Shown piece by piece: positions 12,540-64,000 of a stretch of DNA of 64,000 nucleotides. The notes under the pieces were generated by a model. It was not told the origin of the DNA and did no database searches. It saw only the letters and a list, made by a program, of their open reading frames with translations. Position numbers and translations under genes: made by a program. The stretch spans positions 23,162,001-23,226,000 of the forward strand of contig OY783207.1 of NCBI GenBank assembly GCA_963678705.1, written 5' to 3'. This DNA is from Panorpa germanica (Eukaryota > Arthropoda > Insecta > Mecoptera > Panorpidae). The first letter of the stretch is position 1. Each line of letters begins with the position of its first letter.

Positions 12540-12720
12540 CTTAAATATTCGTCTGTCAACAAGAGATGTCTTTTGAATCAACAGGCAAACACAATAATTT
12601 TGTCAAAAGTGGTGATATTTTTATTTTAATGAAAAGTGCAAACTCTCAGGTTAGTAATGGAACACAATATCATATTTGCATGTTCAAAAATGGCGCGAAA
12701 TTTAAAATGATAGCGTTATA
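12540..12720 (+). repeat. Repeat with TCAACAAGAG and CACAATATCTGCC motifs, copy 1
   Basis: TCAACAAGAGATGTC, GGTGATATTTTTATTTTA and CAAACTCTCAGGTTAGTAATG recur at 48028-48185 (same strand) and at 35510-35730 and 60862-61665 (opposite strand). Confidence 0.65.
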
Positions 12721-28012: not shown

Positions 28013-28169
28013 TGTCGGACAATTGGACTTGCCGCCATTGCCAATTGAAATGGTATCACGGAGAAGAATATTATCCCGGTCTCGCGATGATCTCAACCTG
28101 GACCAGACATTTAATCAACAACCGGAAGAAGAAGAGGACGTCTGGTATCAGAAGGACAAATTGTATAAG
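28013..28169 (+). CDS. Internal coding exon, probably of an Expansion-like MH2-domain protein
   Basis: Seen: a 157-bp stretch, clearly richer in GC and CpG than its surroundings, open in one frame. It starts one base into a codon after the acceptor TTATTTTGTTCTAG and ends in phase 0 at AAG|GTTAGT. The 52 codons encode a proline/leucine start (LDLPPLPIEM), an arginine/serine-rich middle (SRRRILSRSRDDLNLD), an acidic run EEEED and the end VWYQKDKLYK. From memory, not a search, this resembles the region just N-terminal to the MH2 domain of insect Expansion/Rebuf-type proteins, Smad-related factors that act in tracheal tube growth. The MH2 domain itself is not in the window, so following exons must lie beyond 64,000 or were missed. 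The preceding exon must contribute two bases of the split codon and is not visible upstream. Exon status is fairly secure; the identity is tentative. A degenerate mariner-type MITE sits about 230 bp downstream in the intron. Confidence 0.72.
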
Positions 28170-35509: not shown

Positions 35510-35730
35510 TAAAGAGACAAAAATGACTATTGCAATCTATCACAACCAATTTCGTATCATCTTTTTTAATTATAAATATACAGCCATCATTGCAGTGACA
35601 TTTGGCAGATATTGTGTTTCATTACTAACCTCAGAGTTTCTTTTTTGGAATAAAATAAAAATATCACCACTTTCCGCGAAAAAATTGCGTCTTTCTGTTG
35701 ATTTAAAATGACACGTCTTGTTGAAAAACG
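35510..35730 (-). repeat. TCAACAAGAG repeat family, reverse copy
   Basis: GTGACATTTGGCAGATATTGTGT, CCTCAGAGTT and AAAATGACACGTCTTGTTGAA correspond to the reverse of 48028-48185. Short open frames on both strands here are part of this repeat. Confidence 0.6.
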
Positions 35731-43660: not shown

Positions 43661-45700
43661 CAAGTTGTGCTAGTTAGTGGAGACGCTTCCTTAACTTTAA
43701 CAAATTCCTATTAAATTATTTTGTAATTACTGTGTTTGCAATCAATATATCGAACCAACTATTTTTAATTACCAGTATAAGTGAAAGTCTCATTATATTT
43801 GTTCACAAGAAATAACTAATTAAGCTATAAAACAACTAACAGTTATTTTACAACCTGCAGAGAACCGTTTTTGTGTCTGCGTTTAACGCATTAACATTAT
43901 CGGACTTACGTTTGTCTTATCAGCTGCGTTTAAGACTTTCACACCTTCTTTAGATACCGCCTTATAGAATTATTTTATAGGCTGTAAGACAAAGAATCTT
44001 TTTAAAATGCCAATAGGTCTTTAGAAACGTGGATCATTATGTTTATGAGACATTAGGTTTGAAAACATGATTTGTTTTCTGCTTATTTTGGTTTATTCTA
44101 TTATGTTTTCTTTTTTCCTAACTATCCGTTATAACAGAGTCCGTTATAAAGAGGTTGTAAGTGCATAAGAAGGGTTGTGAGAGTTATTTGAGTTTTAAAT
44201 ACTTCCCTGCAGTCCAGGTTTCTTCACAGGAGTGGACACCGATTTAAATCGAGCACATTAAGAATGCAGCTTGAATAAAATGCAGTTTAATAAGTAAACT
44301 AAGCACGATAGTTCTAAGCGTTACATAAAAATAAGTTGATTTGCATATTGAATAACTGCACTACTCAGTGGAATTACTGGAATCGATTCTATATTGCCGT
44401 AATATGGAAATTTCTATTTGGAAATAAAGATCACGTTAGAAATACGACTGCATATTTCTTTCTGATCACGTGGTTACCCCCACTCTCTACCCTTCTCTTT
44501 TCATATTAACATTGTTCTTACTTTTAATACTAGAATCCTTTATAAAAAATGATGATAATAAATTATTTAAGTACATACTAAAACGTATTACTGTTGTAAT
44601 TTTATGTTGGAAAAGCAACAATTTGAGGTAACCTTATGGTGATTGATCCAACACTTAATCCTGTTAAATTATATGTCATTAGAAACTTAGAATATGGAAT
44701 ATGGTTTGAAGATAATGGCCCTATAAATTGTTTTTATTTTTATTTGATATTACTCTTAAAAATAACCTATAGTTAGAGTTCTGTATCTTGAGTAACACAT
44801 ATAGTTCAAATTACGAGAGTTGGATGGTAATTCATTCGTAAAACAAGGTTAAAAAAAGGCTGTCTCACTCTTTGTCTCATAATCTACATAGGATCAAATA
44901 AGATAAAATTCACTATTGTATCGTAGATGTATATGCCTTCGATCTCTCGTAATTTGAAGTAAAGCTTTATTATTATAAAAGGGTAAAGAAGTGGAGGGTA
45001 TTCCTCACATGTAATACTAATTCTATGACGTCAACATTCTCTAGTTTTTGATTGAAATTAGCGTATTTTTCTCTGACGCCAAATTGAATCACAGAGTCAC
45101 AAATAACTTTTTGTGAATGTCATGAAAATGACATAAATTCGGTAAATTTTGGGGAGGCCCAGTATACATAAACATTTGTATAACTAAACCAATAATTCCG
45201 GCAATATTTGCGTCCGGAAATTTTCGCTGTTAAATGTCGTTCACCTGAATAAGTCATTATGTACATTATGTCATACAAAAATAATGTAAAACTTCAATTA
45301 CTAATAAATCGTCAGGAATTTCCCAGTCCTCATATGGAGCTCACTTCTGCGTGTTTGCTGTGTGAGTACCTGTACTTATCGGCACCGCAGTCAATGTCAC
45401 CTGTACGGAGAAAAAATTATATAAAAAATAGCGTGGGCAGTTTTATGTGCATAGTAAGACAAATCGAACGATGGGAGAAGGGGGACAGAGGAAGAGAGAT
45501 AGATGCTGGGTCAGTAAACGCGAATTCCGCGAAAATCGTCACATCGTTTAGCACTTAGAGCAGCAACAGATGGAAACAGGTCCGTACTTGTTAAAAACTG
45601 GTCACGCAGAGCTAATTATTATGTGGCGAAATTTTCATTGAACAATATACATATCTTTAACTACAGATTCAAAATATCCTATAAATAGAAATTGTGCACA
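43661..45700. other. No gene found
   Basis: Mostly AT-rich. 45240-45560 is less biased and open in one plus-strand frame for 99 codons, but it has no splice sites, codon signature or recognisable motif. Confidence 0.35.
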
Positions 45701-47500: not shown

Positions 47501-48027
47501 AACTAGTGGTTATTAATTAAAGTGTTTTTGATTGATATTTAACCGTTTAACCGACCTGTAATCAACGCATTTTATTTTTGAAGATAAAGTTTGTTGAATC
47601 TTGAACTAGAACTATTTCTTTTCTAAAATTAGTATCTCCTTTTCAACTAAATATAAATTACAAAGTAAGGAATCCGTATTGTTTATTATTTTACTTAGTG
47701 TTGTCAAAACATCTTTCATAAAAAATATAAACATTAATATAATATAATGGAAAGTGAATTCGCATTCGCACTAGTAGGTCAAATACATCATTTATTAATT
47801 ATGAATTGTGTTGATTATATAACGCGAGGCGGTGTTGTTTTGTTGCTGGAGTCTTTAATTGTTTAAGACGTAACCACTAGAAAATGTCAAAGAACTTGAT
47901 GATGATTAATTTAATTTAACTTTTGTATTCCTTGAAAATTACATTTTTGCTAGCAATATATTCAACGCATTAAAAAAATTGTTTTTAAGAAAAATAATGT
48001 GAATTTATCTTATAATATAGCATCTTT

Positions 48028-48185
48028 CAACAAGAGGTGTTATTTTAAATCTAGAGAAAGCGCATTATTTTCGTGAAAACGGGTGATATTTTTATTTTAC
48101 TCCAAAGTACAAACTCTGAGGTTTGTAATGAAACACAATATCTGCCAGATATCATTGCAAAGACAGTGAAAAAATGATACGAAAT
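48028..48185 (+). repeat. TCAACAAGAG repeat family, copy near the splice-site candidate
   Basis: TTCAACAAGAGGTGTTATTTTAA, GGTGATATTTTTATTTTACTC and AACACAATATCTGCCAGATATC match the family. It ends about 50 bp before the pyrimidine tract at 48233. Confidence 0.65.
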
Positions 48186-48232
48186 TTAAAATTATGAAAT
48201 ATCGTTTATTCTAATATAATATATTAAATTAA

Positions 48233-48262
48233 TTTCTTTTTTCTTTTGTTACAGGTAAGAGA
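48233..48262 (+). promoter_or_regulatory. Candidate recursive (zero-length exon) splice site
   Basis: Seen: a pyrimidine tract of about 20 nt (48233-48250), then ACAG ending at 48254, then GTAAGA from 48255. The acceptor and donor consensus are therefore juxtaposed. CTAAT- and TTAAT-type branch-point candidates lie 20-50 nt upstream. Known: insect ratchet points have the form pyrimidine tract-NCAG|GTAAGT and divide very long introns into steps. Inferred: it could serve the intron that starts at 28170, 20.1 kb upstream on the same strand. A second donor-like GTAAGC at 48295 would define a 40-nt cassette exon (48255-48294), the arrangement known from vertebrate recursive exons. I noticed no comparable AG|GTAAG juxtaposition elsewhere downstream of 28170 on this strand. 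It could be a chance match, or the start of an ordinary exon. Confidence 0.5.
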
Positions 48263-48329
48263 TTTTACAAATACGTACAAGCTAGTAGCCCCAAGTAAGC
48301 TACAATTATTAAACACAAAAAGGTAAAAA

Positions 48330-50388
48330 AAATATATCAGATTTTATTGAAAAGCATTTGTAGAATATTCCATAGTTTTTGGTGACTTCTCGTTTTGAAT
48401 TTTGACTGGATGAACAGAATGGCTTTTACCCAAGACATAGTAAAATATTAACTGTTCATAATAAAATTTCTATAGTGAGGCAAACGTTATGATCAATAAT
48501 TTCGTTCTTGTAAAAATCGCCATGTACTATTGAAGTGGACTGACTCATCCAGCTGCTGTAAACAAACGCGTTGAGAGATCTAGCTCAAATTTGGCTCAGT
48601 AATTAAGTACAGTATTACCAATTGACGCAAAAAAGGTATTTAGAAAATAATTACCGGCTTCCGTTTTAAATAGCAAAATTCCGTTACCTTCTGAACATAT
48701 CAAGTATAGCGAATTCCTTATTTGATATTTATCTGATTTGCTACTATAGCATTTCTTCTAAGCTTGCCTCCCAAATTCCCTGCACGTAACACTATACCTA
48801 GGTACAATTCTGCAACTATTTACTAGACTATTTTTATCAGCCTATATTGTGTCACTTCTATTGACTACATTCTATTGAAAAGCAAAGATTGCTTTGCAGC
48901 ATTACATGTACCATCCGCCATCACGCACTAACCATCTTCCACAAAGAATCCTTTATACTAAATCGTGATTCTACTTTTACTCCCTGATTGTGAGACTGCT
49001 ACTCGTAATTTCAACACAACCAGAGCCGTCTGCGTCTAGCTCCACTGATAATCTAAGATCTGACTACGTGACAAACCTATATTAACATAGTTATACCTGT
49101 TTTCACCTGATTGGTAAGAGTTTGCGGCCAAAGACAAACGGCAACCGAAAATTTTCAAGTTCTTTACTCATCTCTCTTTGAAATAAATTATATTTATCTT
49201 CAAAACAAGTGAACGAAATTGTTTATAAATTGATTAAATAAATTAAGGCCAGATCTCGTGCTATAAGGGAGCTTCTAGAAGAAGGAGAAGGCAAGAAGTT
49301 GCAAGGAACGAAAGCCACTAAAGAAAAAAGTCATGAAAAGATGACAGATATAGAGAAACATGTTTTGGTTTTTATTATTTTGATATTAGTAACAAATAAA
49401 TGAATTTAATCAAAAAAAGAAAGGCAAGAAACATTCAATAATTAGTCAACATTTATTCAATGGAAGGTGAGGGGAAGGGGAAGGGGGTTCATACTTTTGT
49501 GGCGTCACCTTAAATCTTTGAAATTTAACTTCCAAAAAAGGAAGAACAAAAGCAAAAAGGAATAACAGTAGAACGTCCCAAAACTTATAGTGACCCCTAA
49601 CTAGGATTTTAAGACTATAGTTCAAATTACGAGAGTTCGACGGCGACTCATACTTAAAACAAGTTGTGCGGAATAAACTGCCGATATAACTAAAAAGCAC
49701 TGACTCACTTATTTTTCTATAATGTATATAGAAACGAGTAAGATAAAATACATTATCGTATTATAGATTTATACCGCTCTTATAACCTCTTTTAAGTATA
49801 AGTCGCCGCCGAACTATGGTGATTTGGATTATGCTAGCCTTAGATTAAATAAAGACGAGCGCAATAGGGCTCCTAACTACGGGACTGTACACGGGACTCA
49901 TCTTAGCTAATACATATATTTGTTTTATCTTTTATCTTATTAAAATCGTGATTTATTCAACTATTTTGATTAAGTTTTTTGTATTTGTGCAACGTAACTT
50001 CTGAGTTACCACACACACACTGTATTAGTATAATGACGTCACCATCCGTCTATCTGTCTGTTTATAATATGATTTGTTGTGATTATGGTTATGAAGATGA
50101 AAATCCATCTGCAGAAAATTGTAGGTAGTCTAATCACTTCTAATAACGCCTAAACAAGCCGGGAGATAAGTGCCTTGGAGTCTGGTTAACCAATAAACAA
50201 ATAATCTATTGTAAACAATTATTACTGTATGTTATTACCATCTAAGATGGTATTAAATTTAATTATTAGCAAGAATCTTATTGATAATTATATGACTCTC
50301 AATGCATTTGTAGATAATACTGTTAGGTGTTAATAGAGAAGAATATGTTAATACATAATTTGCTTGTGAATCTTGTGAGTAAAATTGC
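48330..50388. other. No gene found
   Basis: AT-rich. A G-rich purine tract lies at 49466-49488 and an 84-codon minus frame at 49446-49700 has no support. Confidence 0.35.
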
Positions 50389-60861: not shown

Positions 60862-61665
60862 CTGAAATTTTGAACAATATTTCGGTGACATTTGGCAGAT
60901 ATTGTGTATCATTACTAACCTCAGAGTTAGTACTTTAGATTAAGGGGGGAGTAAGGTTTCAACTTTTTTTTTCATTTTTTTTAATTTATTTATATTAATG
61001 TACAACATATTAAGTTTATTGTGTAAAAATTTGAAATCGATTGGAGTAAAACTGTCGGAGATATAGAGTTTTAAGTCTTGACCTCTCTGGTCTGGTTTTG
61101 TCTTACTTTGAAACTTTTAAATGTGTTTTTCTCACAAAAACACATTTCACACTCTTTCTTTACATAAATGCCGAGGTAACGCTGTCGAATTCTTTTTTAT
61201 TTTTTAATTTTAACGTATTTTAAAATAGCAAAGTTTCTGATTTTTTCATGAAAAATTGATATTTTGAATTTTAAGTGCTGTAAAAAATTGAAAAATTAAT
61301 AAAAAAAGAAAAACTCGACAGCGTTACCTGCAAAAACTTATCAACTAATGAAATCATTTTGGTGTTTCGATTTCAGAAAATCCAGTGATGAGTTATGAGT
61401 GGCACCGCAATGTTACTTTTTTTTGTGACGTCAGCGGAGATTTGCTGTCAATGCCTCATTTTTTTATATTTATTTATGAAAATTTCACAAAATATTCTTC
61501 AAATGTTATTTTATCATGTAGTAATTATGGAAATAATTATATATAAACTGTGTCGTCAAAAAACATTATCGAAAATATGCCTCAAATTAAAAATATCACA
61601 ATCTTTTCCTTTAATATTACGTTTTTCTGGTTATTTAAAATGACATCTCTTGTTGAAACACCCTA
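60862..61665 (-). repeat. TCAACAAGAG repeat family, copy split by a TTAAGG element
   Basis: 60862-60939 (GTGACATTTGGCAGATATTGTG, CTCAGAGTTAG) and 61588-61665 (AAATATCACAATC, AAATGACATCTCTTGTTGAA) are the two halves. The uninterrupted arrangement is seen at 35510-35730. Confidence 0.65.
60940..61590 (+). mobile_element. ~660-bp TTAAGG family, most complete plus copy
   Basis: Begins TTAAGGGGGGAGTAAGG. It contains the internal inverted repeat at about 61174-61328 (GGTAACGCTGTCGAATTCTT ... AAACTCGACAGCGTTACC) and ends near ATTATCGAAAATATGCCTC with TTAA at 61587-61590. Its insertion splits another repeat, so both borders are known to within a few bases. Confidence 0.78.
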
Positions 61666-62542
61666 TAGATAAGGATTGCGTTATAGAAGACGCTACACAA
61701 AACATTTCCGTGGCAAACAATTTGCATGTCGATCGCGGTATGTCTGTCCATCTGTTATTCATTGATGATACGTACAATAACTAACTATCTAGTTCAGGTC
61801 TAATTCTTTTCTATTTGGCACAGTTTCTTTTACTCTTGCAGTGAACCTAAGTATGTTTTACAGTTACCTATTGTACCTCACTTTACTTGCAATGTTAGTA
61901 TATTAATAACATTTATATGTATTCACTAATTAATCAGCTTATTACGTAGTTCTAACGTATAATTTTACCAGAAATAGAAACTGAATTATCAATTCTTGTA
62001 ATATAATGTGATTTATAGTTGGAAGAACAAATTCAAATTAGAATAAATGATTTATTAGTTTTGTTTAATTAATTCTGCACAACGTTTTATGTGACGTAGT
62101 GGATAATATGGCTAATTATAAAGCGATTTAATTAGCATCTGTAATGGATCTACGATTTTTTCCAGTTGGAGCAAGAATTTTACATTGATGCCACCTACCC
62201 TCTAAATTCTGCGAATTTTTCACAAAAAAGTTTATATTTTTTGTTTGGAAAGTAACAGGATGGATTACTTGCACCTGATAATCTTCGTGAGGACCAAAAA
62301 TAAAGGTCATTTTCCCAAAAAAATAAAAATATATTAACAAACCGAAAATAAATTTTCTATATCAAACTAAATGTGTAAGTCTTTCGAAATTTAGCGCCCT
62401 ATGAATTATTGCACACCCGGTGCAAGTACTCTGACTTACCCTCCTTCCACCTTCCCCCCACAACGCATGTAGCGAATAATTGATAAGCTAATAAAAATGT
62501 TTCAAAAATGTTGAAGTTAATTTTAAGCGAATTATACTACAG
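61666..62542. other. AT-rich sequence, nothing recognised
   Basis: A 70-codon minus frame (62340-62128) has no support. Confidence 0.35.
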
Positions 62543-63925: not shown

Positions 63926-64000
63926 CTAACAGTCGGGCAGGCGGGCTAGCGGGCTGCTAAAGTCACGGAGGCCGTGGAGGCCATCCAGGGCACAACCAGC
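63926..64000 (+). other. GC-rich segment at the window edge
   Basis: After CGTCTAACAG (acceptor-like) the last 70 bases are strongly GC-rich with GGGCAGGCGGGCTAGCGGGC and GGAGGCCGTGGAGGCCATCC. One plus frame stays open to the end. It could be the start of an exon or a CpG-rich promoter cut by the window border. Confidence 0.3.

Follow-up and report, generated by a model that had tools for sequence, protein, structure and literature searches.

The junction at positions 48254/48255 of a 64,000-nt stretch of the Panorpa germanica assembly (the whole stretch analysed, hereafter the window; C4:23162001-23226000) is very likely an insect-type ratchet point used in intron 1 of the gene expansion (exp), and the 36,972-bp gap between the first two exp coding pieces is probably removed in two steps. 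Two-step removal appears probable because a textbook join-and-recut signal lies about midway along this gap and has well over a hundred lookalikes in the genome. A ratchet point at this place had been proposed in the original prediction, and that reading is supported by the strand of the site, its near-midpoint position in a long phase-0 intron and a branch-point match 23 nt upstream. It also fits a ratchet donor that is the stronger of two (as scored with an approximate matrix), an out-of-frame RS-exon and a genome-wide class of similar sites that rises above two controls.

At the junction, a T-rich tract precedes an ACAG that ends at 48254 and is joined directly to GTAAGA from 48255, while a second donor, CAA/GTAAGC, starts at 48295, 40 nt beyond; tract, motifs and coordinates agree to the base with those originally predicted. 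The site has the polypyrimidine tract and the YAG abutting GTRAG that characterize insect intronic ratchet points. AGGTAAG occurs only once on the two strands of the window, at this very junction. No further copy was found on either strand between the junction and the window end, where no second such juxtaposition had been noticed before. Chance sites, defined as AGGTRAG preceded by 20 nt of which 85% or more are pyrimidines, were counted on both strands of Markov sequences (150 per order); their mean number per 64 kb was 0.0067 for order 1, 0.04 for order 2 and 0 for order 3. With a first set of splice matrices, which are approximate, the acceptor at 48254 ranks first among the 6414 AGs of the window and the donor at 48255 second among its 6987 GTs. 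The same matrices give the combined acceptor and donor 13.7 bits, against 5.0 for the next-best of the 408 AGGTs in the window, and no site attained 13.7 bits in 20, 20 and 10 Mb of Markov sequence of orders 2, 3 and 5. Over 264 kb around the locus, these approximate matrices place the acceptor third of 26,357, the donor 22nd of 27,965 and their combination first of 1523.

Judged by sequence comparison, the host gene of the intron is expansion. Residues 13-52 of the translation of the exon at 28013-28169 match PDB 4r9p_A (Drosophila RE28239p) with an E-value of 1.6e-16 (phmmer), and this plus-strand exon, with its ATG at 28050, is identified by phmmer and tblastn as the first coding exon of the gene. 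The structure of the N-terminal domain of Expansion is the topic of PMC4388265, and PMC4305360 deals with how the Drosophila gene contributes to the deposition of chitin. The phmmer search with exon 1 also returned two viral glycoproteins (E 0.22 and 0.24), which we regard as chance matches; Pfam gave a single match, under its cut-off, and a scan of the exon against the viral_contigs and genome_contigs sets found no relative. Exon 1 ends in phase 0 at AAG/GTTAGT. Exon 2 (EHIQEVLDKW..) was located by tblastn in DNA of the same assembly, outside the window, where it starts at window coordinate 65142, and more exp exons lie near window coordinates 76402, 78939 and 79220. With a fragment of Expansion as query, tblastn also gave a hit near 45191 (E 0.35), which was discarded as chance, the matching exon being the one at 78939.

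Since exon 2 starts at 65142, intron 1 runs on the plus strand from 28170 through the end of the window at 64000 to 65141 (C4:23227141), which gives a length of 36,972 bp with phase 0 at both ends. What had been a guess at a giant intron, made from inside the window, thus acquired definite limits. The site had also been placed on the same strand as the exon at 28013, and both indeed lie on the plus strand, the latter as the real exon 1 of exp. The junction is on the sense strand of this long intron, as a ratchet point should be, and cuts it into 20,085 and 16,887 nt, at 54% of its length. In flies, segments typically measure 9-15 kb, single sites lie nearer to the midpoint than expected by chance, and 63% of introns longer than 40 kb contain a high-confidence site (PMC6110457). 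The exp segments of 20.1 and 16.9 kb are longer than this range, the first of them being the distance earlier described as typical of ratcheting segments. The intron itself falls just below 40 kb, and the position of its site conforms to the midpoint tendency of single fly sites reported in PMC6110457.

The pattern 10Y-4N-YAGGTAAG was searched across the whole assembly (464,208,970 bases in 249 contigs), with the reversed pattern and one permutation of the core (GAATG) as controls. It yielded 88 + 84 = 172 matches, as opposed to 16 + 12 = 28 for the reversed pattern and 10 + 11 = 21 for the permuted core (13 + 6 for the reverse of the latter). The genome thus holds the surplus expected of a ratchet class, with 144 to 151 of the 172 matches in excess of the two controls. 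Set against 172, the 28 reversed and 21 permuted matches imply that 12-16% of the matches are background and 84-88% stand above it; with a single core permutation as control, the latter share may still include exons that naturally start with GTAAG.

As sister sites we took the first 60 of 100 listed matches (of the 172), in listed order, minus the 48254/48255 site itself, leaving 59. YTAAY with its A at 17-32 nt is present in 43 of these 59, compared with 13.7% of random places. GTAAG occurs at +20 to +99 in 28 of the listed sisters (5.6% of random places), its first copy lying mostly at +40 to +69, and plain GTAAG is absent there from the other 31. GTAAGT is found in the same interval in 20 of the 59 (1.8% of random places); the 48255 site lacks it and has GTAAGC at +40. 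Position +6 of the ratchet donor is T in 37 and A in 11 of the listed sisters, and A at the 48255 site. In a matrix built from the 59 sisters with the exp site left out, the latter scores 28.9 bits and exceeds 56 of the sisters, whose own leave-one-out scores have a median of 23.8 and a minimum of 2.6. Scores below 12 bits mark six of the 59 as probable chance matches or something else. When the same matrix is applied to the 1523 AGGTs in the 264 kb, 48254/48255 comes first with 28.9 bits, followed by 11.8 and 1.8. Restricted to columns that the search pattern leaves free (-7 to -4 and +6 to +8), the site scores 4.05, close to the sister median of 4.36, against a median of -4.66 for the 1522 other AGGTs, 21 of which equal or beat it.

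Some features of the class are of interest in their own right. G stands at -7 from the junction in 26 of the 59 listed sisters (L024-L083), mostly within TTTTGTTNYAG. The exp exon 1 acceptor (28013) shares this, so that acceptors of this species may have it in general. By genomic position, 12 of the 14 adjacent pairs less than 120 kb apart lie on one strand; for pairs within 60 kb the count is 10, compared with 2.6 expected under uniform scatter (both counts among the 100 matches listed of 172, the latter with rough lengths for three contigs). Three pairs, L051/L052 (C4:6403391 and 6423014; same strand, 19.6 kb apart), L058/L059 and L070/L071, are alike well past the motif, and two of the close ones, L051/L052 and L070/L071, are local duplicates by sequence. 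Ratchet-like sites may multiply through local duplication.

Around the exp site, all elements lie on the plus strand. The likely branch point is TTAAT at 48229-48233, whose A at 48232 is 23 nt from the junction, within the usual distance and matching the mode of the sister sites (23-24 nt); CTAAT at 48211-48215 is a far candidate, its A (48214) being 41 nt away from the junction. The polypyrimidine tract and acceptor occupy 48233-48254. The AG-free zone before the acceptor AG is 86 nt long, a length attained by 102 of 6415 AGs, and it overlaps repeat DNA in part. The ratchet donor (GTAAGA, 48255-48260) abuts the acceptor, and the RS-exon donor (GTAAGC, 48295-48300) follows the putative cryptic RS-exon (48255-48294, 40 nt); neither donor has the favoured T at +6, and the approximate matrix gives them 7.7 and 3.8 bits, respectively. 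A short RS-exon with its own downstream donor, and a ratchet donor stronger than that one, is the arrangement looked for in a ratchet point. The 40 nt are open in phase 0, yet inclusion of this out-of-frame segment, also as in the ratchet class, would shift the frame and yield ...KLYKVRDFTNTYKLVAPRTYTRSPG followed by a premature stop in exon 2. A cryptic RS-exon that brings a donor of its own is also part of Drosophila ratchet points, and there the stronger donor wins, whereas a weakened ratchet donor switches the outcome to inclusion (PMC8605326). The original prediction was right that a second donor is present and needs one correction: such a donor is not a vertebrate-type trait alone, given the Drosophila case described in PMC8605326.

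The steps that we infer for the RNA would be the following. The acceptor at 48254, with a branch point near 48232, and the donor at 48295 would be recognized together and define a 40-nt exon. The end of exon 1 at 28169 would then be joined to 48255, with 28170-48254 leaving as a first lariat, and this joining would re-create a strong donor, AAG/GTAAGA. The re-created donor would beat the weaker GTAAGC at 48295 and be spliced to exon 2 at 65142; this second step would remove 48255-65141, leaving the mRNA without a trace of the site.

An expressed or poison cassette exon could present some of the same signals: in that case 48255-48294, or a longer segment, would be retained in some mRNAs and the initial GTAAG used seldom or never. 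The segment does have an acceptor before it and a donor after it, and the premature stop upon inclusion would suit a poison exon. We nevertheless consider this explanation unlikely, since the approximate matrix rates the donor at the start of the segment (7.7 bits) above that at the end (3.8 bits) and the stronger donor wins in Drosophila (PMC8605326), and since 48254/48255 fits the genome-wide AG/GTAAG class. It is similarly improbable that the RS-exon acts as a regulated off-switch, in which the weaker donor at 48295 would be picked in some tissues or stages and the resulting premature stop would tune Expansion output and chitin deposition.

A chance juxtaposition, or a strong but idle decoy acceptor, is very unlikely. 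Such cases would be drawn from the 12-16% of pattern matches expected as background; the score of the exp site, however, went unmatched in 50 Mb of Markov sequence, and the sister-derived model, from which the site was left out, puts it above 56 of the 59. The site also has its branch point and second donor in place, and lies on the right strand of a long intron.

That the splice site was carried in by a mobile element, or is a copy of a duplicated exon, is extremely improbable: a dispersed repeat does stop at about 48195, just upstream of the junction, and a similar acceptor unit does lie 55.7 kb upstream with 85% identity over 53 nt, but the repeat matches end short of the tract and junction, the genome search gave just two places for 48196-48345, itself and, as a partial match, the upstream unit (such counts being lower bounds), and the likeness of the pair beyond the motif is ordinary (22nd of 1830 site pairs). 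Mobile-element origin was accordingly dropped. Copies or fragments of the dispersed repeat lie in the window at 48016-48195, the copy that stops shortly before the candidate ratchet point, and at 35587-35726, 12552-12711, 60886-60943 and 61584-61667. The upstream unit (L016, about C4:23154556, window coordinate -7444, plus strand) consists of a weaker acceptor joined to GTAAAG and is the second of the 1523 AGGTs in the 264 kb, with the 11.8 bits of the sister matrix given above; it could represent either a weak ratchet point or an exon located upstream. Its reading as a duplicate of 48254/48255 was abandoned because of this ordinary extra-motif likeness and because blastn at 1e-4 links 226 pairs among the 60 sites, mostly over the motif among the 40 pairs listed. 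Elsewhere in the window, an inverted repeat at 1897-2517, with 280-nt arms that are 98% complementary and 61 nt apart, resembles a foldback element. Scanning the window for Rfam families and for tRNAs gave no match.

The candidate exp ratchet point most closely resembles those of Drosophila Ubx, kuz and Bx as described in PMC8605326: in each, the acceptor abuts a donor within a long intron, and a short out-of-frame exon with its own weaker donor follows. It differs from the Drosophila sites in belonging to another insect order, in its host gene and in having A instead of T at +6. With vertebrate RS-exons (in part after PMC8605326) it would share an exon-definition step via the downstream donor; those exons are mostly expressed, whereas at the exp site the ratchet donor is the stronger one, which would favour full skipping. 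For mosquito, honey bee, beetle and sea urchin, large introns have been computed to hold an excess of RP-sites: the ratio of sense to complement spans 4.0 (bee) to more than 10 (mosquito), the fruit fly reaching 21.7 (PMC2773006). Panorpa germanica resembles these invertebrates other than Drosophila in its surplus of joined acceptor and donor sites. The ratios in PMC2773006 set the sense strand of annotated introns against the complementary one, whereas the present analysis assigns a single site to its gene and describes the sisters with branch point and second donor, and this without gene annotation. Our literature search retrieved no paper on recursive splicing in Mecoptera, although one may be in print elsewhere.

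Taken singly, the exp site is ordinary for an insect and of a kind already known. What it adds is an extension of ratchet-point anatomy, comprising branch point, AG/GTAAG and second donor, to a scorpionfly, beyond the insects tabulated in PMC2773006. The 144 to 151 matches above controls suggest that long introns of the Panorpa germanica genome are commonly removed in steps, and this genome-wide excess makes the gain and loss of ratchet sites across insects directly testable.
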